This document shows, piece after piece, positions 4,681-32,309 of a DNA stretch of 43,962 bases. The notes below the pieces were generated by a model, which was not told where the DNA came from, made no database searches, and worked only from the letters and a program-made list of their open reading frames with translations. The DNA comes from Bacteroidota bacterium (GTDB lineage: Bacteria > Bacteroidota > Bacteroidia > Palsa-948): the NCBI GenBank assembly GCA_003164895.1, contig PLUL01000070.1, forward strand, positions 1 to 43,962, read 5' to 3'. The translations under genes were made by a program, and so were the position numbers. The number at the start of each line of letters is the position of its first letter. Within the stretch, counting starts at the first letter, position 1.

Positions 4681-5997
4681 TTGAATCTTGCTTCACTATC
4701 TCCTGTAGAAGAAACCAAACGTATCATTTACCTGGATGTTATTCGCGGCATTGCCATTCTCGGTATTTTGTTAATGAACATTTACAATTTTGGAATGGTA
4801 AGTTATTTACAGGATCGGTCCGGTATTTATGAAGGACTGAGAACATTAAATTTTAATATCTGGTTCTTAGGAAATGTTTTTATTGACGGAAAAATGCGCG
4901 GAATTTTTTCTATACTCTTCGGTGCAGGAATACTCTTGTTTGCCAGCAAAGCCGACAAAGGAACAACAGGCGCACATTACCGCAGAATGTTATGGTTATT
5001 AATATTCGCATTCATTGACATTTTTGTTTTCCTATGGAAAGGCGATATACTGCACGAGTATGCCATTTGCGGTATGCTTCTTTTCCCGCTTCGAAAATTA
5101 AAACCCATTTACCTTGTAACTATTTCATTCCTGCTATTAACTTTTAATATTTACTACCAAAGCTCTGGATATATAGAAATTCATGAGTTACGACACTCAG
5201 TACTCGAGTCGGATTCCTTATTGGCAAAAGGAAAAACACTTACCAAAAAACAAGATGATGACAAAAAGCATTGGGAAAGAATTTTAGGAAGTCGCCTGCC
5301 TTTAAACGATGCGGCAAAATATCGTAATGACAGCACTTATACCAAAGAATGCAGCATGAGGCAAGGAGGTTATGTCAAAAATAGAGAAGATGTCATTGAA
5401 ACTGCACAGATTCTAAAAGATCCTGAATATTATCTTGGATTTTTACCGGAGATTATAGCCATTTTATTAGGCATGGCATTGTTCAAATGGGAGATTTTTT
5501 CAGGCACTACAAGAAGAAGAAATTATTTTCTCCTGTGCTTATTAGGTGTTATCGGACTGGGATTTCAATTTTATATAACCTCAGTCACACCTTATACTCA
5601 AACTGACTTGGTCAATTTTATTGACAAAGGCAATGTTTTTATTGCATTCTCAGATGAATTCATCCGCATTTCAATCTGCCTTGGATATATTGGAGTGATC
5701 ATGCTCGTTTGTTTTTCTGGACGGATGCAAAAACTGAAACACTTTCTTGCTTGCACGGGTAAAATGGCATTTACAAATTACCTGATGCAATCTATTATCT
5801 GCACATTTATTTTTAATGGATACGGATTAGGACTTTTTGCAAAACTCCAACGATATGAATTAATGTTTGTTGTTGTTGCGATCTGGATATTTCAAATGGC
5901 TTTCAGTACACTGTGGTTAAAACGATTTCGCTGGGGTCCAATGGAATGGCTATGGAGATCCCTCACCTACTGGAAGAGAATACCGAATAAAATTTAA
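4681..5997 (+). CDS. DUF418/YeiB-family multipass membrane protein
   Basis: This 438-residue inner-membrane protein begins with the family signature RIIYLDVIRGIAILGILLMNI. A run of hydrophobic helices and a C-terminal DUF418-like part follow (CLGYIGVIMLVCFSGRMQ, then ACTGKMAFTNYLMQSI and a final WGPMEWLWRSLTYW). A soluble loop with charged residues (about 165-245) interrupts the helices. The family is distantly related to acyltransferase-3-like membrane proteins, and transport or acyl transfer is suspected but not shown. The start is a TTG at 4681: the next in-frame Met is inside the first helix, and homologs begin 10-15 residues before the RxxxLDxxRG motif. It overlaps the convergent lipoprotein gene by 4 bp. 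Confidence 0.85.
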   Translation: MNLASLSPVEETKRIIYLDVIRGIAILGILLMNIYNFGMVSYLQDRSGIYEGLRTLNFNIWFLGNVFIDGKMRGIFSILFGAGILLFASKADKGTTGAHYRRMLWLLIFAFIDIFVFLWKGDILHEYAICGMLLFPLRKLKPIYLVTISFLLLTFNIYYQSSGYIEIHELRHSVLESDSLLAKGKTLTKKQDDDKKHWERILGSRLPLNDAAKYRNDSTYTKECSMRQGGYVKNREDVIETAQILKDPEYYLGFLPEIIAILLGMALFKWEIFSGTTRRRNYFLLCLLGVIGLGFQFYITSVTPYTQTDLVNFIDKGNVFIAFSDEFIRISICLGYIGVIMLVCFSGRMQKLKHFLACTGKMAFTNYLMQSIICTFIFNGYGLGLFAKLQRYELMFVVVAIWIFQMAFSTLWLKRFRWGPMEWLWRSLTYWKRIPNKI

Positions 5998-7034
5998 TGC
6001 TTGGGAATTCCCAATCCGTACATTTTCTTTTGCTTTTGCTTTTTCATTTCTTTTTTTGCAAGACGAGCATTTGAATTCATAGGGTTGTTTTCAATTTTGT
6101 CGCGCTGCCGTTCTTCCCTTGATTTAAACCTTAAATGAAACCAGCCTGATTTCCTTTTTGTTTTTCTGTCAGTTCCTTTTTCGGCACTGTACTGCGATTT
6201 TTTATTCACTTTTGTTTTCACAGCAAAAGCATCTCCTGCATTCTTTGACTTGCGTTCTTCTCTCCTGAATTTACGTTTGGGTTTTTGTCCGATTGCTTTC
6301 GACCCATACTCTTTTATATAATTCTGTTTAGAGGCAAACGCATCTCCCAATTTTTTTGACTTTCGTTCATCTCTTTTGAATTTCCTTTTTGGTTTTGAAC
6401 CTGTAGCTTTTGAGCCATAATCTTTTATATAACTCTGTTTAGACGCAAATGCGTCGTCTTGTTCCTTTGACTTGCGTTCTTTCCTGTGGAACCTTCCTCT
6501 GGCTTTTCCGCCCGATGCTTTCTCACCGTAATCTTTTGTATAATTTTGTTTGGACGCAAATGCATCACCTAAAGTTTGTTGGTTGACCACATTTCTTTTA
6601 CCTCTCCGTCCTCGTTTATCATTTGCTTTCTCTCCATAATTTTTGGTTTCAGTTTTTGAAGCAAACGCATCATTCAAAGTTTGTTGCTTGACCAAATTTC
6701 TTTTACCCCTTCGTCCTCGTTTGCCATTTGCTTTATCACCATAATTTTTTGTTTCGGTTTTTGAAGCAAAGGCATCTGCTGATTTGGATTTTATTCTGCG
6801 AGAAGATGATTGAAATGCATCTTTTTGTGTAGAACCTTTTACTTTTTGTTTTTTTGAACGAAAAAAATCTTTCTGAGAATTTGTTTTTTGTCCTGTCGGT
6901 TTACTGCTGAAAAAACCATTCTCCGTTGTTGTTTTTTGTTTAGCAGGAATATCAGCCGACGGCATTCCGTTCTTGCTTTTGCACGCGGAAAGAACGATCG
7001 TTAGAAAAAGAAACCATATCAACAGAATTCTCAT
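5994..7034 (-). CDS. highly basic lipoprotein with 35-37 residue tandem repeats
   Basis: I do not recognise this family. The protein has 346 residues from the ATG at 7034. A signal peptide ends in the lipobox LSAC (Cys18), so it should be a lipid-anchored envelope protein. DAFA recurs at residues 87, 122, 157, 194, 231 and 268, giving five repeats of 35, 35, 37, 37 and 37 residues. The consensus is roughly DAFASKxxYxKxYGxKAxGxK followed by a cluster of Arg and Lys, with earlier degenerate copies (DFFRSK, DAFQSS). The C-terminus is also Lys/Arg rich, so the mature chain is strongly positive and probably extended. It could bind nucleic acid, lipopolysaccharide or acidic polysaccharide; this is inference from charge. 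An upstream in-frame ATG at 7055 would add MVQQKKK. Confidence 0.7.
   Translation of the reverse strand: MRILLIWFLFLTIVLSACKSKNGMPSADIPAKQKTTTENGFFSSKPTGQKTNSQKDFFRSKKQKVKGSTQKDAFQSSSRRIKSKSADAFASKTETKNYGDKANGKRGRRGKRNLVKQQTLNDAFASKTETKNYGEKANDKRGRRGKRNVVNQQTLGDAFASKQNYTKDYGEKASGGKARGRFHRKERKSKEQDDAFASKQSYIKDYGSKATGSKPKRKFKRDERKSKKLGDAFASKQNYIKEYGSKAIGQKPKRKFRREERKSKNAGDAFAVKTKVNKKSQYSAEKGTDRKTKRKSGWFHLRFKSREERQRDKIENNPMNSNARLAKKEMKKQKQKKMYGLGIPKH
6234..6776 (-). repeat. tandem repeat array, five units of about 105-111 bp
   Basis: This is the DNA counterpart of the repeats in the basic lipoprotein. Units begin at each DAFA codon set. The first two units are close copies of each other (both contain KTETKNYG and KRGRRGKRN). 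The last three form a second subgroup with 37 codons. The subgroups suggest stepwise duplication. Confidence 0.8.
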
Positions 7035-7121
7035 TTTCTTTTTTTGCTGAACCATAAAGATAAGTAGAAAGAAAAACCTGTTAGAAAAATAATATTTTCA
7101 ATGCGGAAATACTGCACACAT

Positions 7122-19106: not shown

Positions 19107-21113
19107 ATGATAACCGCAAATTCACCTGTAATTTTCAATCGAAAAAATTATTCTGACGAAATTCTTCTTTCGCTTTATAAGGAATTGATAAAACCGAGAA
19201 TGATAGAAGAGAAAATGCGTATTCTTCTCCGTCAGGGAAAAATTTCTAAATGGTTTTCCGGAATCGGACAGGAAGCAAGCAGTGTAGGTGCTGCGATGGC
19301 GCTTGAGAAAGACGAATACATTTTACCGATGCACCGCAATCTTGGAACTTTTACGGTGCGTGGAATTCCTCTTGAAAAATTATTCGCACAATTTCAGGGG
19401 AAGAAAAGCGGGTTTACCAAAGGTCGCGACAGAAGTTTTCACTTCGGCACACAGGAATATAAAATCATCGGAATGATTTCGCATCTTGGTCCTCAGTTGG
19501 GTGTGGCAGATGGAATCGCGCTCGGACATCTTTTGAAAAAAGAAAAAAAAGTAACACTCGTTTATTCAGGAGATGGCGGAGCTTCGGAAGGAGATTTTCA
19601 CGAAAGCATAAATGTTGCCGCTGTATGGAACTTGCCTGTAATCTTTGCCATAGAAAATAATGGATGGGGTTTGAGTACACCAAGCAATGAACAGTTTCGC
19701 TGTAAACAATTTATTGATAAAGCCATCGGCTATGGAATGGAAGCTGTGCAAATTGACGGCAACAATGTTCTTGAAGTTTATGACACTGTAAAAAATCTTG
19801 CTGAATCTATCCGAAAAAATCCAAGACCGATTTTACTCGAATGTGTTACGTTTCGCATGCGCGGACACGAAGAAGCAAGCGGAACAAAATATGTTGACCC
19901 GAAACTTTTTGAAGAATGGGGAAAGAAAGATCCCATTTCTAAATATCAGGAATTCCTTCTCCGAGAAAATATTCTTAGTGAAAAAATAATTTCAGAATAC
20001 AAATCGGAGATTCAACATGAAATTGATAAAGGAATTGAAATAGCTTTTAGTGAAAAAAATATTATACCGGATACTGAAGAAGAAGTGAGGGATTTGTACG
20101 CAGTTTCTCCCGTTCAGGATGAGAACAAGATTGAGAAACTGAAATCAAAATCAGAAAAACGTTTGATTGATTCCATTTCAGATGGACTTCGTTTGGCAAT
20201 GAGAAAACATTCCAACCTTGTATTGATGGGACAAGACATTGCCGAATACGGTGGCGTGTTTAAAATAACCGATGGCTTTGTAAATGAATTTGGAAAAGAA
20301 AGAGTGCGCAATACTCCGCTCTGTGAAAGTGCAATTCTCGGTGCAGGATTGGGATTATCCATCAACGGAATGAAAGCGATGGTTGAAATGCAGTTTGCCG
20401 ATTTCGTGAGCGAAGGTATGACACAGATTTGCAACAACCTCGCAAAAGCTCATTGGCGCTGGAGGCAAAACGCAAGTGTGGTGGTGCGCATGCCCACGGG
20501 CGCAGGTGTGGCGGCTGGTCCTTTCCATTCGCAAAGTAATGAGTCATGGTTCTTTCATATTCCGGGATTGAAAATTGTTTATCCGGCTTTTCCTTTGGAT
20601 GCAAAAGGGCTTTTACTCGCTGCGTTTGAAGATAATAATCCTGTTATGTTTTTCGAACACAAAGCGCTTTACAGAAGTGTAACGCAAAATGTTCCTGATG
20701 ATTATTTTACAATTCCGATTGGGAAAGCAAAAGTTTTAAAAGAAGGAAATGATTGTACAATCCTTACTTACGGCATGGGCGTTCATTGGGCGTTGGAAAT
20801 AATTGAGAAAAATAAATTAGAAAATGTTGAGTTGATTGATCTGCGCTCGCTTGCTCCACTGGATACAGAAACTATTTTTGCGAGTGTGAAGAAAACCGGA
20901 AAAGCAATCATCCTTCACGAAGACACTCTCACAGGAGGAATTGGCGGAGAAATTTCTGCGCTTATCACCGAACATTGTTTTAATTATCTGGATGCTCCCG
21001 TTATGCGAGAAGGTTCTTTGGATACTCCCGTTCCTTTTGTTGAAACGCTGGAGAAAAACTTTTTACCGAAGGAAAGGTTTGAGAAGAAGCTGATGGAGTT
21101 GCTGAAATACTAA
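19107..21113 (+). CDS. fused alpha/beta E1 component of a 2-oxo acid dehydrogenase
   Basis: This 668-residue thiamine-diphosphate enzyme joins the E1 alpha domain (about 1-320) and the E1 beta domain (about 345-668) in one chain. The ThDP motif is GDGG at 155-158 followed by ENNGWG at 183-188. The beta part starts LIDSISDGLRLAMRKH and contains GQDIAEYGGVF and ITDGF. It decarboxylates a 2-oxo acid, either pyruvate or branched-chain 2-oxo acids, and acylates the lipoyl group of E2. Fused E1 of this kind is common in Bacteroidota. Neither E2 nor E3 is adjacent, so the substrate remains open; the branched-chain type is my guess from the alpha-domain sequence. Confidence 0.93.
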   Translation: MITANSPVIFNRKNYSDEILLSLYKELIKPRMIEEKMRILLRQGKISKWFSGIGQEASSVGAAMALEKDEYILPMHRNLGTFTVRGIPLEKLFAQFQGKKSGFTKGRDRSFHFGTQEYKIIGMISHLGPQLGVADGIALGHLLKKEKKVTLVYSGDGGASEGDFHESINVAAVWNLPVIFAIENNGWGLSTPSNEQFRCKQFIDKAIGYGMEAVQIDGNNVLEVYDTVKNLAESIRKNPRPILLECVTFRMRGHEEASGTKYVDPKLFEEWGKKDPISKYQEFLLRENILSEKIISEYKSEIQHEIDKGIEIAFSEKNIIPDTEEEVRDLYAVSPVQDENKIEKLKSKSEKRLIDSISDGLRLAMRKHSNLVLMGQDIAEYGGVFKITDGFVNEFGKERVRNTPLCESAILGAGLGLSINGMKAMVEMQFADFVSEGMTQICNNLAKAHWRWRQNASVVVRMPTGAGVAAGPFHSQSNESWFFHIPGLKIVYPAFPLDAKGLLLAAFEDNNPVMFFEHKALYRSVTQNVPDDYFTIPIGKAKVLKEGNDCTILTYGMGVHWALEIIEKNKLENVELIDLRSLAPLDTETIFASVKKTGKAIILHEDTLTGGIGGEISALITEHCFNYLDAPVMREGSLDTPVPFVETLEKNFLPKERFEKKLMELLKY

Positions 21114-21121
21114 CAAATTTT

Positions 21122-22816
21122 CTATCTCAATATCTTTCTCACAAAAGCAACGGTGAAATAACTCATCATAAACACGCCCATAAAACCTTCCATGGCGCTC
21201 ACCATCCTCAGCAATCCTGTTGTGTAATAATCGCCAAAGCCAACGGTGAGAAAAGTAACTGCGCTGTAATAAAACGCCACCGGCAATGAATGTGCATCAG
21301 GAAAATTATTGGAAGAAAAAATATTTGCATCACTTATCCGCGGCAAAATATAATATTGAGAACTGAACAAAGAGTAAACCACTCCCATGCTAAAAATTAC
21401 GCGGAGAGGATTAGTTGCATACTGCCCCATTTTATCGAACACCAGCCATTTGAAAAAATAAAACGGGTACGCCCACAATCCGTTTGTTTTATTTTTTTTC
21501 AATTCGGAATGCAACAGCCATTTTGCCTCGCAGCGCATAAATTCCACGTACGCTTTATCCTCGTCACCATATTTTCCAACCGCACGAAATTCTTCTTTGA
21601 GCATTCTGAATTGCTCTGCTTTTTCGAGCAACGATGTATCAGTTTGTTCGTAGATAAGATCTTTAACTCGGTTCTTTGTCCAGTCAATATTTATCCGCCC
21701 CATGCTTTTCATTCCTGAAAAATTAAAGATGAGGATGGGAATTTCATTTTCTTCAGGAACCAGATCAATGATGTCTCTCAAAATTGTTTCGCGTAAATTC
21801 AACAACGCGCACTGAGCAAAACGGAAATCAAAATACGCGCTCAATCGGCTTGCCTGAAAATTAATGGATACAACTTTTGATCTATAAAAACTTACTTTGT
21901 CGGACGAAAATTCTGTTCTTTCAAAAGACACTTCATTCGGACCAAAATCCACTTCTTCAAAATTCAAATCTCCTTTGCCAAAAACAGAAGAACGGAAACT
22001 CACCTTCGCATTGTTAAACTCACACCCTTCAAACGATACATCTCCATCGCCCCAATCCACGCGTTTGAAATCCACATGCTCGCCACCAAATTCCACCGCC
22101 TTGAAATCGGTTTTTCCGCTTCCAAAAGAACTTTTTTCAAATGAAACTCCTCCCTGAGTGAACTTTGCAAAACGGAAATCCGTTACGCCATTTCCCCATG
22201 TGACGGATTGAAAATCTATTTCCTTGCAATCGAATTTTGTATTTACAAAAAAAATATCACCCGAACCCAAATGCGCAAAACGAAAAGATAAATTTCCTGT
22301 TCCGAATTCAGCAAAACGAAAATCAAGGGTGCCTTCACCAAATCGTGTGCGCCTGAAACTTACCGCACCATTCCCGAATTTTGCATGGCTGAAATTAATA
22401 TTCCCATTGCCAAACATTGCTCCTTCAAACGTGATCTTGCTGTTCTCAAAAACAGAATGGGAAAAATCAACTTCAATATCACAATCAAAAAAAGCATTCT
22501 TGGCAAAGAATTTTTTCAACGTAACAGGCAAATGCTCAGTAAGAGAATTTCGTTTTCTAAATTCTGCAAGAGAAAAATTTTTGACATAACACTCATTCAA
22601 ACTGATGGGTTGATCCGTTTCCATCATTTCATAAATGGTATCGGCATGCAGATAACCATAATGTTTGGTTTCTTTTTTTCTTCCGTTTGCGTCAAAAAAA
22701 TCTATCTGGATCGTATTTCTATACACCGTTCCATCGGAAGAAGTAAATGGATTTTCAAGAATGGAAACTTTGAAATCAATCAGTGCGTGTTCCGGTTTAT
22801 GAAGAAGAATTTCCAT
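21122..22816 (-). CDS. two-helix potassium channel with 12-residue beta-solenoid-like repeats
   Basis: This is a 564-residue protein in three parts. Residues 1-110 are an N-terminal cap. Residues 111-314 form seventeen exact 12-residue repeats of pattern FGxGxxxFxxxx, with Phe at repeat position 8 in every unit and Phe, Leu or Trp at position 1 in nearly all. After a helical linker (about 390-440, FRMLKEEFRAVGKYGDEDKA), residues 470-564 form an Ion_trans_2 pore module: one helix, a pore loop with selectivity filter TVGFGD (524-529), and a second helix. It should be a tetrameric inner-membrane K+ channel with a large cytoplasmic repeat domain. Related channels carry 5-residue pentapeptide repeats; a strict 12-residue period is unusual to me. 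The gene converges on the E1 gene with an 8-bp gap. Confidence 0.88.
   Translation of the reverse strand: MEILLHKPEHALIDFKVSILENPFTSSDGTVYRNTIQIDFFDANGRKKETKHYGYLHADTIYEMMETDQPISLNECYVKNFSLAEFRKRNSLTEHLPVTLKKFFAKNAFFDCDIEVDFSHSVFENSKITFEGAMFGNGNINFSHAKFGNGAVSFRRTRFGEGTLDFRFAEFGTGNLSFRFAHLGSGDIFFVNTKFDCKEIDFQSVTWGNGVTDFRFAKFTQGGVSFEKSSFGSGKTDFKAVEFGGEHVDFKRVDWGDGDVSFEGCEFNNAKVSFRSSVFGKGDLNFEEVDFGPNEVSFERTEFSSDKVSFYRSKVVSINFQASRLSAYFDFRFAQCALLNLRETILRDIIDLVPEENEIPILIFNFSGMKSMGRINIDWTKNRVKDLIYEQTDTSLLEKAEQFRMLKEEFRAVGKYGDEDKAYVEFMRCEAKWLLHSELKKNKTNGLWAYPFYFFKWLVFDKMGQYATNPLRVIFSMGVVYSLFSSQYYILPRISDANIFSSNNFPDAHSLPVAFYYSAVTFLTVGFGDYYTTGLLRMVSAMEGFMGVFMMSYFTVAFVRKILR
21875..22486 (-). repeat. 17 tandem 36-bp coding repeats in the channel gene
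   Basis: The coding repeats correspond to residues 111-314 of the channel, with no insertion or deletion in 612 bp. Nucleotide identity between units is moderate, so the array is ancient and kept by selection on the protein pattern. Confidence 0.85.
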
Positions 22817-28218: not shown

Positions 28219-29157
28219 ATGACCGAACAAACAAATTTACCGGAGAAGAAAGAGAGAAGAAAGGGGGAAATTATTTATCTCCTCCTGCTTTTTCTTTTGC
28301 TTTCTTCCAATGGATTGATGGGCTGGTTATGGTGGAAAGACAAAGGCAAAATTGAAATTATAACTGTTGAAAAAGAAAACGTAAAAAAAGATGCCGAAGT
28401 TGTTAAGCAGGAACTCATCGCACTGAATGCACAATATGATAATCTGAAAACAAATAACAAAAAAATGAATGAAGAGATTGAAGCTAAAAAACTTGAGATT
28501 GGTGAACTACAAAAGCAACTCGAAAAACATAAAGACGATTCCTATATCATAGCTAAATTGAAAAGAGAAACGCAAACACTGCGAGACATCATGCAGCATT
28601 TTGTACATGAAATTGATTCCCTGAATACTTACAATAAAAATATTATTGCTGAACGAGAAGTGGTGAAGAAAGAACTGAAAACAGAAAAAGAAAAAAACAC
28701 CCAGCTCACCAAAGAAAAAGAAGATTTACAAAGCACCGTGAATATTGCATCAATGCTAAAAGCCGTGAGCTTGTCTGTTTCTGCAATTGCAGAAAAAAGA
28801 GGAGGCAAAAAACAGGTGGAAACCAAAAAAGCAAAGCACACCAATAAAATAAAAATCACTTTCACGCTTGCCGAAAATGCGGTCGCACGAAAAGGCGATC
28901 ACATAATTTATACGCGCATTATTTCCCCTGATGGAAAAGAAATGACTCAATCAGATGACTCAACGCATACTTTTACTTTCGGAAAATCTCATGGATACTG
29001 GGCAACAAAAAAAACAGTTAACTACATCAATGAAAATACCGATGTGGTTATGTATGCCAGCCCAAAACCTGGTGAAACTTTTATCAACGGGAAATATATG
29101 ATTGAAGTAAATACCGATGGCGTAACTATTGGCAACACCTCTCTTAAACTGGAATGA
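28219..29157 (+). CDS. membrane-anchored coiled-coil protein, paralog A
   Basis: This is a 312-residue protein of unknown function. A short charged N-terminus and one transmembrane helix (about 17-38, IIYLLLLFLLLSSNGLMGWLWW) are followed by a long coiled coil (about 45-185). The coiled coil contains TLRDIMQHFVHEIDSLNT. The C-terminal beta domain of about 100 residues (KIKITFTLAENAVARKG to TIGNTSLKLE) looks Ig-like. Topology predicts the coiled coil and beta domain in the periplasm. The protein at 31386-32309 is a full-length paralog. Its stop overlaps the WG-repeat gene start as ATGA, so the two are translationally coupled. Confidence 0.8.
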   Translation: MTEQTNLPEKKERRKGEIIYLLLLFLLLSSNGLMGWLWWKDKGKIEIITVEKENVKKDAEVVKQELIALNAQYDNLKTNNKKMNEEIEAKKLEIGELQKQLEKHKDDSYIIAKLKRETQTLRDIMQHFVHEIDSLNTYNKNIIAEREVVKKELKTEKEKNTQLTKEKEDLQSTVNIASMLKAVSLSVSAIAEKRGGKKQVETKKAKHTNKIKITFTLAENAVARKGDHIIYTRIISPDGKEMTQSDDSTHTFTFGKSHGYWATKKTVNYINENTDVVMYASPKPGETFINGKYMIEVNTDGVTIGNTSLKLE

Positions 29158-31307
29158 AAAAATATATTTCTATTTTCTTTTTCCTTTTTATTAATTCAGT
29201 ATTTCTTTTTGCCGGCTCACTGGAGAAAGGATTTGAAGCTTTGAAAATTTACGATTACTTCCATGCAAAAGAATTATTTGAAAAATCTTTTAAGAATCAC
29301 CCGGCTGGCGCATCCTTCGGATTGAGTACGATTTTTTACAGAAATGACAATCCGTTTTCTAATATTGATTCTGCATATAAATACATTCTTATCTCTGAAA
29401 AAACTTTTAAATCTTCGGATGCAAAAGAAAAAGAAACTCTTCTAAAAGTTTCTATCAATCTGGTTGCGATTGATGATTTAAAAGAAAAAATAATTCAGAA
29501 AGCATTTGAAAAGGCAAAAACAGAAAATACAATTGAAACTTTTAATTGGTTCATAAAATGTTTTTCTCATCACACCCTGAAAAATGATGCAATCAAGTTG
29601 CGGAATAAGCTTGCTTTTGAGAACGCAAAAAAAATAAATACTCCTCAATCGTATAAAGATTTCATAGCAATTTATCCCGATGCGGATGAAATAAAAGATG
29701 CACAGTGGCTCTATGAATTCACGTTGTTTAATGCCATGACTAAACAAAACAACATTGAAACCTACGATGCCTTTGTAAAGAAGTTCCCAAAAAGTCCGTA
29801 TCGTTTTCAGGCGGAAGACAGTCTTTTTTCTTTTTCAACTCAGAATCAAACAGCTGAAGAATATCATCGTTTCATAAAAAAATATCCTGAGAATCACAAT
29901 GCAAAAAAAGCATGGGATAAAATTTATTTTCTTTCAACTGTTGATTTTACTCCTAAAGTAATTTCAAAATTCCTTTCTGACTTTCCTGATTTCCCAGACA
30001 AACCAAAAGCAAAAGCCGATTTGGAACGTGCTAAAATGAATTTATTTCCTGTTCAGCAGGATGGAAAATGGGGATTCATTGATTCTATTGGCGAAGCGAT
30101 TATTCCTTTTACATATGATTGGGCTGATAATTTTTCAGAAGGTGCTGCAGTTGTGATCCGTAGCGAAAAAGCCGGATACATTAACAAAGCAGGAAATATT
30201 ATCATCCCGCTTTCTTACGATGAAGCAAATTCATTTCATGGCTCTGTTGCAATTGCCAAAAAGAATAGCAAGTTTGGACTCATTCACAAAACTGGAAAAC
30301 AAATTCTTCCATTTGAGTTTGACGACATCAGCGAAAACGAAAATCCCACAGAAGAAAAAATAATTCATGCCCTGAAAGAAGGTGTTTCAAAATTTTATGA
30401 CACAAAGGGAAAACTTTTTGCTGAAGGAAAATTTGAGAAAGCAGGAGATTTTTCCTGCGGAAGAGCCTACATCGTTCAGAAAGGTCAATATGGTTTCATC
30501 AATAAAAGAGGTGAAATAATTATACCTGCAATTTATGAGTGGGTTGAAAATTTTCGCAATGGAACAGCCCGAATCAAGCTGGATAATAAATTCGGATTAA
30601 CAGATACTTCCGGAAAAATAATTCTTCCTTGTGAATACGACAGGATAGATGACTTTTCAGAAGGACTTGTGCGTGTTGCCAAGGAAAAGAAATTCGGTTT
30701 TGCAGATGAAAATGGAAACATTGTCATTCCGATAAAATATAATTACTCTTCTGAAATCTCTGAAACAAACGGATTTAAAAACGGGCTGGCAAAAGTTGAG
30801 CAAAATAAAAAACGCGGGTTGATTGATAAATCAGGAAAATTAATTATTCCTTGCGAGTTTGATGACATTCGTAATTTTTCAGAAGAACTTTGCGCTGTAA
30901 AACAAAAAAACAAATGGGGCTTCATTGATAAAAACAAAAAACAGAAAATAAATTTTCAGTTTGATTATGTATGGGATTTTTCGGAAGGATTTGCACGTGT
31001 AAAAGTAAAGGGCAAAATTGGTTTCATTGATCAAAAAGGAGTATTTATTACTCCTCCCGCTTACGATGATGCAACGGATTATAAAAACGGCTTTACTATT
31101 ATAATTCTTGGCGGAAAAAAAGGAGCCCTTGACCCATCAGGAAAGACTTTGAAATTTCAGGAGCCCTCGGGAACAGCAATGATTCCCTGCGAAATGGACG
31201 AAATAGAATTTCTTGGAAACGGAATGTTAAAACTTGAGAAGAACGGAAAGTCCGCTTACTTCAATCTCTCTCTTAAAAAACAAGTTTGGACTGAAACAGG
31301 GTTTTAG
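29154..31307 (+). CDS. WG-repeat protein with N-terminal helical repeats
   Basis: This is a 717-residue secreted or periplasmic protein with a signal peptide (ISIFFFLFINSVFLFAG). The first part (about 20-300) is helical and TPR-like, including YDYFHAKELFEKSFKNHP and a series of FxKxFPxS/YPE-type units that resemble sel1/YbgF-like repeats. From about 300 to the end there are about ten or eleven WG repeats, such as GKWGFIDSIGEAIIPFTYD and GQYGFINKRGEIIIPAIYE. WG repeats are presumed binding scaffolds. It is translationally coupled to the upstream coiled-coil gene, and a paralog of that gene follows 78 bp downstream. Confidence 0.88.
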   Translation: MKKYISIFFFLFINSVFLFAGSLEKGFEALKIYDYFHAKELFEKSFKNHPAGASFGLSTIFYRNDNPFSNIDSAYKYILISEKTFKSSDAKEKETLLKVSINLVAIDDLKEKIIQKAFEKAKTENTIETFNWFIKCFSHHTLKNDAIKLRNKLAFENAKKINTPQSYKDFIAIYPDADEIKDAQWLYEFTLFNAMTKQNNIETYDAFVKKFPKSPYRFQAEDSLFSFSTQNQTAEEYHRFIKKYPENHNAKKAWDKIYFLSTVDFTPKVISKFLSDFPDFPDKPKAKADLERAKMNLFPVQQDGKWGFIDSIGEAIIPFTYDWADNFSEGAAVVIRSEKAGYINKAGNIIIPLSYDEANSFHGSVAIAKKNSKFGLIHKTGKQILPFEFDDISENENPTEEKIIHALKEGVSKFYDTKGKLFAEGKFEKAGDFSCGRAYIVQKGQYGFINKRGEIIIPAIYEWVENFRNGTARIKLDNKFGLTDTSGKIILPCEYDRIDDFSEGLVRVAKEKKFGFADENGNIVIPIKYNYSSEISETNGFKNGLAKVEQNKKRGLIDKSGKLIIPCEFDDIRNFSEELCAVKQKNKWGFIDKNKKQKINFQFDYVWDFSEGFARVKVKGKIGFIDQKGVFITPPAYDDATDYKNGFTIIILGGKKGALDPSGKTLKFQEPSGTAMIPCEMDEIEFLGNGMLKLEKNGKSAYFNLSLKKQVWTETGF

Positions 31308-31320
31308 TTTGTATCGTTAA

Positions 31321-31328
31321 TATGTTTG
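31321..31328 (+). promoter_or_regulatory. predicted -7 element of coiled-coil paralog B
   Basis: TATGTTTG matches TAnnTTTG, 57 bp before the ATG at 31386. It sits inside an imperfect inverted repeat GTTAA...TTAAC. Confidence 0.4.
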
Positions 31329-31385
31329 TTAACATTTCACAATTTTTAACATTCATTCCGCGTTATCTATCCATAATTTTACTTT

Positions 31386-32309
31386 ATGGAAACAAACGAA
31401 ACCTCGCAACAAGAGAACAAGCCAAAGCGCGATAAACTCTTTCTCTATTTATTTATTTTCATGTCTGTTGCCTGCGCAGTTCTTGCATGGCTGTTTTGGT
31501 CGCAGAAAAATGAAACGCAAACCGTAGTTACCGAAAATATTCAAATCACTCAGGAATCGGAAGTAGTAAAAAAAGATCTGAACCAATTGCAAACCGAATA
31601 TGATGCGCTGAAAACTGATGACGAAGGAATAAAAAAAGAAATTGACGAAAAGAAAGAAGAGATCGCAAAACTTCAGACAGAAGCCGAAAAACACAAGAAC
31701 GATGCTTATATAATCTCCAAACTGAAAAAAGAAACCAAAACTTTGCGCGACATCATGCAGCATTTTGTGGTGGAGATAGATTCGCTGAACACAATGAATA
31801 AAAAACTTATTGCTGAGAAAGATTCCGTCAGCACAGAACTGCACAGCGAAAAGAAAAAAAGTTCTACGCTGCAATCAGAAAAAGATAATCTCTACAAAGT
31901 GGGGTCAGTGATAAAAGCAAGCGGGATGACGGTAACGGCTTTCAACGTAAAATCAAAAAGCAAAGAGAACGATACACAGAAAGCAAGGAAGACCGATAAG
32001 ATAAAAATCACATTTAATCTCAGCGAAAACAGAATTGCTCCCAAAGGCAAACGCGAAATTTATGTGCGCATGATTACACCCGATGGAAAAGAGTGGACCG
32101 AATCTGCCGATGCCGACCACATGTTCACTTTCAATAACTCAAAAGGATTTTTTGCCGCCAAGAAATCCATCACGTATGAGAACGATGAAATGCCTGTGGA
32201 AATTCTTGTGAAGAAAAAAGATAAAGAAGAATTTCTTCCGGGAAAATATCAGATCGAAGTGAACATGGATAACAACACGATCGGAAGTGCTTCGCTAGAG
32301 TTGGAATAA
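31386..32309 (+). CDS. membrane-anchored coiled-coil protein, paralog B
   Basis: This 307-residue paralog of the protein at 28219 has the same order of parts: one N-terminal transmembrane helix (LFLYLFIFMSVACAVLAWLFW), a Lys/Glu-rich coiled coil (about 45-180) and a C-terminal beta domain (KIKITFNLSENRIAPKG to TIGSASLELE). The two share the nearly identical core TLRDIMQHFVxEIDSLNTxNK and the SPDGKE/TPDGKE strand. The function is unknown. The duplication brackets the WG-repeat gene, so the three may form one envelope complex. Confidence 0.8.
   Translation: METNETSQQENKPKRDKLFLYLFIFMSVACAVLAWLFWSQKNETQTVVTENIQITQESEVVKKDLNQLQTEYDALKTDDEGIKKEIDEKKEEIAKLQTEAEKHKNDAYIISKLKKETKTLRDIMQHFVVEIDSLNTMNKKLIAEKDSVSTELHSEKKKSSTLQSEKDNLYKVGSVIKASGMTVTAFNVKSKSKENDTQKARKTDKIKITFNLSENRIAPKGKREIYVRMITPDGKEWTESADADHMFTFNNSKGFFAAKKSITYENDEMPVEILVKKKDKEEFLPGKYQIEVNMDNNTIGSASLELE

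Follow-up and report, generated by a model that had tools for sequence, protein, structure and literature searches.

The stretch of Bacteroidota DNA considered here (the window, 43,962 nucleotides) encodes a protein in which a long array of regular 12-residue repeats is followed by a potassium channel pore. This locus raises two questions: does the array represent a new type of repeat domain, as an earlier note on this DNA had proposed, or a version of a known one, and what might such a domain do when joined to an ion channel? We investigated these questions using profile searches, structure prediction and comparative genomics.

Gene and domain architecture

An open frame on the minus strand, from an ATG at 22816 to a stop at 21122, encodes a product of 564 amino acids (Table 1). 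A plus-strand reading of 21122-22816 was ruled out, the frame being interrupted by stops and containing no gene.

Table 1. Map of the channel gene and its predicted domains in the window
Feature	Residues	Positions	Strand	Basis
Whole gene (P0001): N-terminal beta domain, 12-mer beta-solenoid, helical hairpin, interfacial helix, 2TM K+ pore		21122..22816	-	frame, orthologues, dN/dS
Beta-rich N-terminal region and solenoid N-cap, no signal peptide	1-110	22487..22816	-	AlphaFold2, hydropathy
17 x 12-residue units, F-G-x-G-x-V-[SD]-F-x-x-[AS]-x; coil of two units, 24 residues	111-314	21875..22486	-	sequence, Pentapeptide_3 search, AlphaFold2
Irregular C-terminal coils of the solenoid and cap, conserved G-x-I-x-I-D-W-x-x-N	315-384	21665..21874	-	orthologue alignment, AlphaFold2
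Helical hairpin linking solenoid to membrane, conserved EQFRxLKEEFxxxGxYxDEDxAYVxFxRxE	394-441	21494..21637	-	alignment, AlphaFold2
Amphipathic aromatic interfacial helix, then Y-[AG]-T-x-P-x-R motif ahead of TM1	443-469	21410..21490	-	AlphaFold2, comparison with other channels
TM1	470-494	21335..21409	-	AlphaFold2, hydropathy
Pore helix and TVGFGD selectivity filter	511-529	21230..21286	-	sequence, Ion_trans_2, AlphaFold2
TM2; RKILR ends the chain just past the membrane, no C-terminal regulatory domain	535-564	21125..21214	-	sequence, AlphaFold2, hydropathy

The Pfam model Ion_trans_2 (PF07885) matches residues 483-562 of the window protein with 39.6 bits against a cut-off of 22.5 (E 5e-10), and all scanned orthologues also match it. 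Sequence, AlphaFold2 and hydropathy concur in placing the TVGFGD filter between helices 470-494 and 535-563, in agreement with the earlier reading of a filter flanked by two C-terminal helices. All orthologues with the pore recovered in the same reading frame contain the motif T[VI]G[FY]G[DE], relatives having TIGYGD or TVGYGD and, in one case, TIGYGE. The protein would presumably assemble as a tetramer and conduct K+ selectively. The hairpin (0.68) is nearly as conserved as the pore (0.73) and exceeds the average of the solenoid (0.60). Helices comparable to those ahead of TM1, along with a Y/H-G/A-x-x-P-x-R motif, are also seen in other Bacteroidota channels and in a pentapeptide channel of Halorussus discussed below.

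Hydropathy analysis of the window protein detected neither a signal peptide nor a strongly hydrophobic segment ahead of residue 470. Taken together with the C-terminal TM1-P-TM2 arrangement, this indicates that the solenoid should be cytoplasmic, and thus supports, as a prediction of topology, the placement that had earlier been deduced. Since the chain stops a few residues past TM2, it lacks an RCK or other C-terminal domain, and regulation, if any, would come from the N-terminal side. The K+ signature filter and the pore-loop architecture are common to the window protein and Kv, KcsA and MthK, and Kv channels likewise have a cytoplasmic N-terminal domain before their TMs; in contrast to these channels, the window protein has no voltage sensor, T1 or RCK domain.

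Elsewhere in the window we observed a convergent plus-strand gene for a fused alpha/beta dehydrogenase E1-like component (19107-21113, 668 amino acids), which lies 8 bases from the channel stop. A minus-strand ORF (5994-7055) encodes a lipoprotein-like protein of 353 amino acids with about five basic tandem repeats of ~35 residues each (...DAFASKQNYTKDYGEKASG.K.KRKF.REERKSK...). In the plus-strand region 28219-32309, a 717-residue WG-type repeat protein (29154-31307, read by eye) is flanked by two membrane-anchored paralogues with coiled coils (28219-29157 and 31386-32309).

The 12-residue repeat is a variant of the pentapeptide repeat

The repeat array consists of 17 successive units with no indels, in which position 8 is Phe without exception and position 1 is Phe, Trp or Leu in 16 of the 17. 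Position 6 is occupied by Val, Ile or Leu in 15 units, position 11 by a small residue (Ala, Ser, Val, Thr or Cys), and positions 2 and 4 by Gly in 11 and 10 units, respectively. None of 100,000 shuffles of the region gave 17 Phe residues in one phase (maximum 11), which bears out the strict period described earlier. That description had also called the repeats exact; this holds for the length of the unit and not for its letters, as the mean pairwise identity between units is 30%. The spacing of Phe alternates between five and seven residues, and each 12-mer reads as two pentapeptide-like faces, V-x-F-x-x (5) and A-x-F-G-x-G-x (7).

In a whole-genome profile search, Pentapeptide_3 (PF13576) matched the window gene at residues ~257-301 with 28.5 bits, barely above its curated cut-off of 27 bits, and two other stretches of this frame more weakly; the orthologue L007 scored 60.1 bits across 8 stretches. 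In contrast, an hmmscan of the window protein recovered Ion_trans_2 alone, with no pentapeptide match even at an E-value of 10. This discrepancy is probably an effect of the speed filter and may hide the repeat in routine annotation; standard Pfam scans overlook the 12-mer in many members of the family. The canonical pentapeptide model, PF00805, matched neither the window protein nor the scanned orthologues, and where the canonical definition calls for at least eight contiguous 5-residue A(D/N)LXX repeats, the unit here is 12 with a Phe spacing of 5+7.

A search of a plasmid collection recovered 77 records, chiefly from Streptomyces, with the matching proteins mostly annotated as 'pentapeptide repeat-containing protein'. 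Three actinomycete proteins from this search that we examined contain 16-25 consecutive 12-mers of the F-S-S-G-T-V-D-F-A-R-A-E type, in the same register as in the window protein, and score 61-109 bits with Pentapeptide_3; in a single comparison, one of them aligned with the window protein over ~200 residues without gaps at 33-34% identity (E 8e-32). WP_329583145.1 from a plasmid of Streptomyces sp. NBC_01361 and QKW32468.1 from Nocardiopsis flavescens share the unit F-x-x-G-x-V-[DS]-F-x-x-A-x and its register. The actinomycete proteins differ in having no K+ pore, hydrophobic N-terminal segments of another kind, and repeats that lie toward the C-terminus and are near-identical to one another. 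Convergence of short repeats could possibly account for the likeness, while at the level of sequence the register, residue pattern and profile all agree.

An AlphaFold2 model of the full-length protein, computed with 20 orthologues, had a mean pLDDT of 84.8, with values above 90 in the solenoid and lower ones in the membrane part; residues 54-384 modeled alone reached a pLDDT of 92.7 and a pTM of 0.89. Strand autocorrelation in these models peaks at 24 residues (0.78 in the full model and 0.86 in the domain alone), is about 0.5 at 12 and is negative at 20. The canonical pentapeptide coil consists of 20 residues, made of four pentapeptides (PMC8145042), and a 2026 study of knotted solenoids describes three-sided solenoids carrying a knot (PMC13123833). 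Nothing in the present data hints at a knot in the window protein. Judged from the predicted secondary structure, from which we derived the number of sides and the cross-section, the coil here would be a four-sided pentapeptide-like one of 5+7+5+7 residues, with two opposite sides each bearing two extra residues in a GxGx turn.

Foldseek searches of the PDB with the domain returned mostly pentapeptide proteins as top matches (EfsQnr, AlbG, QnrB1 and MfpA), these matches being weak (E about 1e-3, rmsd mostly > 10 Å). HetL aligned with the full model with a Z of 17.6 and an rmsd of 3.0 over 228 residues, and in VIA-align pentapeptide proteins rank below larger right-handed beta-helices such as the Sf6 tailspike (Z 22), suggesting that fold comparison by itself would not separate the pentapeptide type from other beta-helices. 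A search of the repeat profile against sequences of solved structures gave chance matches only. HetL, QnrB1, MfpA and AlbG, which are among the best Foldseek matches, have the same inward small/large pattern as the window solenoid, but are soluble proteins with a unit of 5 and a coil of 20. Overall, the data support a predicted right-handed parallel beta-solenoid of the pentapeptide type with a wider coil.

A unit of 12 and a coil of 24, instead of 5 and 20, would suit a separate dodecapeptide family unrelated to pentapeptide repeats, as would the failure of hmmscan to report any repeat family and of PF00805 to match. This alternative is nevertheless largely refuted and appears very improbable to us: Pentapeptide_3 scores above its cut-off in both the window gene and L007, the same 12-mer is present in proteins whose annotation and profile scores are those of pentapeptide repeats, and the residues facing inward (small or aliphatic at i-2, Phe at i) follow the pentapeptide pattern. 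Thus, the repeat does not stand apart from pentapeptide repeats as the earlier note had suggested, but is a wider and uncommon version of the known Pentapeptide_3 solenoid. That note had reasoned that a good match to a pentapeptide-type Pfam model and an ordinary square helix would make it a known variant; such a model does pass its cut-off, whereas the predicted coil has 24 residues and not the 20 of the ordinary square.

Phyletic distribution and selection

Orthologues of the window protein show 51-82% identity within the genus and about 40-44% elsewhere in the class, and the 12-mer register is maintained at identities to the window protein of 35-82%. Searches of public genomes recovered 23 loci matching most or part of its length, all from MAGs labeled Bacteroidetes, Bacteroidales, Bacteroidia or Flavobacteriales. 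Among 395 genomes sampled from the phylum, the full protein was found only in its own genome, the remaining matches being pores only. Likewise, the repeat profile recovered its own gene and one weak match from these 395 genomes, indicating that, apart from this channel, few Bacteroidota proteins contain the 12-mer. Length variation comprises single-residue deletions in the orthologues L003 and L031, and 24 extra residues in the L015/L033 group, equivalent to two extra units and split by the aligner as 12+12, which fits the addition of one coil.

Against the nearest sequenced relative (82% amino acid identity), the repeats have a dN of 0.06 and a dS of 1.54, this dN being the lowest of the four regions compared, and most changes in the gene fall at third codon positions. 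Judged from these comparisons, the family is under strong purifying selection. A comparison of gene neighborhoods yielded no partner gene: the genus of the window and a Bacteroidales clade have different neighbors, and those conserved are housekeeping genes confined to one Bacteroidales clade. A defense role was considered and set aside, PADLOC having given no match.

Other solenoid-bearing channels and phage matches

The combination of a pentapeptide solenoid with a K+ pore has a precedent in the Halorussus caseinilyticus protein WP_276282428.1, which matches both Pentapeptide (2e-34) and Ion_trans_2 (5e-12). It shares with the window protein an N-terminal solenoid, a short helical linker with (Y/H)(G/A)-x-x-P-x-R, a TM1-pore-TM2 unit with a T-[LVI]-G-[YF]-G-D filter, an E-x-x-x-G motif in TM2 and a short tail; it differs in having canonical 5-residue A(D/N)LRx repeats, and its linker and pore are ~24% identical to those of the window protein. 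A further 12 haloarchaeal plasmid records contain relatives of the Halorussus linker and pore, which are labeled either as pentapeptide repeat-containing proteins or as potassium channel proteins. Hence, the fusion of a pentapeptide solenoid to a K+ pore is already found in public annotation. What survives of the proposal of a distinct domain is that a 12-mer solenoid is truly fused to a K+ pore; the kind of repeat and the kind of fusion are both known. What is distinctive is an orthologue family restricted to Bacteroidota in which the 12-mer solenoid is joined to a conserved helical hairpin and to a pore that lacks a C-terminal domain.

In certain other Bacteroidota channels (L011, L061, L013 and L066), a beta-solenoid-like region rich in Phe is present and the pore seems to be preceded by an additional TM; their filters include SLGFGS, TLGFGN, TLGFGD and TLGYGE. 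L011 and L061, for which the full N-terminus is available, begin with a signal-peptide-like segment; L013 and L066 are related channels represented without their N-termini. These features suggest that in channels of the L011/L061 type the solenoid lies outside the cytoplasm, inverted relative to the window protein.

Two PHROG families with no assigned function also gave matches: phrog_25690 to the 12-mer repeats (E 1e-31) and family 15350 to the pore (E 2e-4; for a relative, 1.5e-8). Some phages may therefore encode repeats of this sort as well as proteins resembling K+ channels. A tblastn search of phage records and viral contigs found no convincing encoded relative. We accordingly set aside a phage origin, as the phrog_25690 match came with no phage or viral relative and may reflect shared repeats only.

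Functional implications

We consider it fairly probable that the protein is a tetrameric 2TM K+ channel with the N-terminal cytoplasmic wide-coil solenoid of the pentapeptide type as its sole regulatory domain, which would sense a partner or ligand and gate the pore via TM1. The binding site for such a partner or ligand in the cytoplasm would be a conserved edge of the solenoid, on the coils around residues 226-271, where the outward-facing D237, R252, E263 and K271, invariant or near-invariant among orthologues, may mark the contact edge. The bound state might then be passed through the conserved hairpin and the aromatic interfacial helix to TM1, the movement of which would open or close the pore. 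The neighborhood comparison furnished no ligand or partner for the solenoid.

Less probable, though a serious competitor, is a passive solenoid without a part in gating, which would serve to assemble the tetramer or to anchor the channel at some cellular site. The T1 domain of Kv channels functions in tetramer assembly and in tethering to a cell site, and the solenoid resembles it in being N-terminal to TM1, besides being long and regular; furthermore, no conserved partner gene was found, and the repeat number varies by two units between clades while the pore is kept, as would suit a spacer or tether. However, constraint in the comparison with the nearest relative is strongest in the repeats, and the near-invariance of the four outward residues exceeds the needs of a spacer. 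The presence of EfsQnr, QnrB1, AlbG and MfpA among the closest Foldseek matches could also point to a module that mimics DNA or binds gyrase, as Qnr and MfpA do, with opening tied to DNA topology or gyrase. We give this almost no credence, as the net charge of the repeats is just -9 over 204 residues, including 23 Lys/Arg, the coil is longer than in Qnr/MfpA-type proteins and there is no linked gene. Control of TM1 by the solenoid, as an N-terminal sensor or gating tether, remains the reading we favor. A bolder form of N-terminal control, which we regard as unlikely, would be a class of K+ channels gated solely by an elastic wide-coil solenoid, acting as a spring or tether that turns mechanical strain or partner binding into opening.

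Conclusions

Our full-text search of a library of open-access papers found no study of K+ channels with a beta-solenoid as the only sensor, and nothing relevant on pentapeptide repeats with K+ channels, on domain architecture or on Pentapeptide_3. In the open-access papers searched, a defined Bacteroidota family that joins the 12-residue, 24-per-coil variant to a K+ pore seems to be undescribed. K+ channels with a solenoid as the only sensor occur in archaeal and bacterial records alike, and the label 'pentapeptide repeat' conceals the 12-residue, 24-per-coil variant. If elastic gating by an N-terminal solenoid were true, it would be a principle so far undescribed among prokaryotic channels. 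The family described here offers a compact and regular example (564 amino acids), in which the coupling between solenoid and pore could be tested by changing the repeat number in whole coils.
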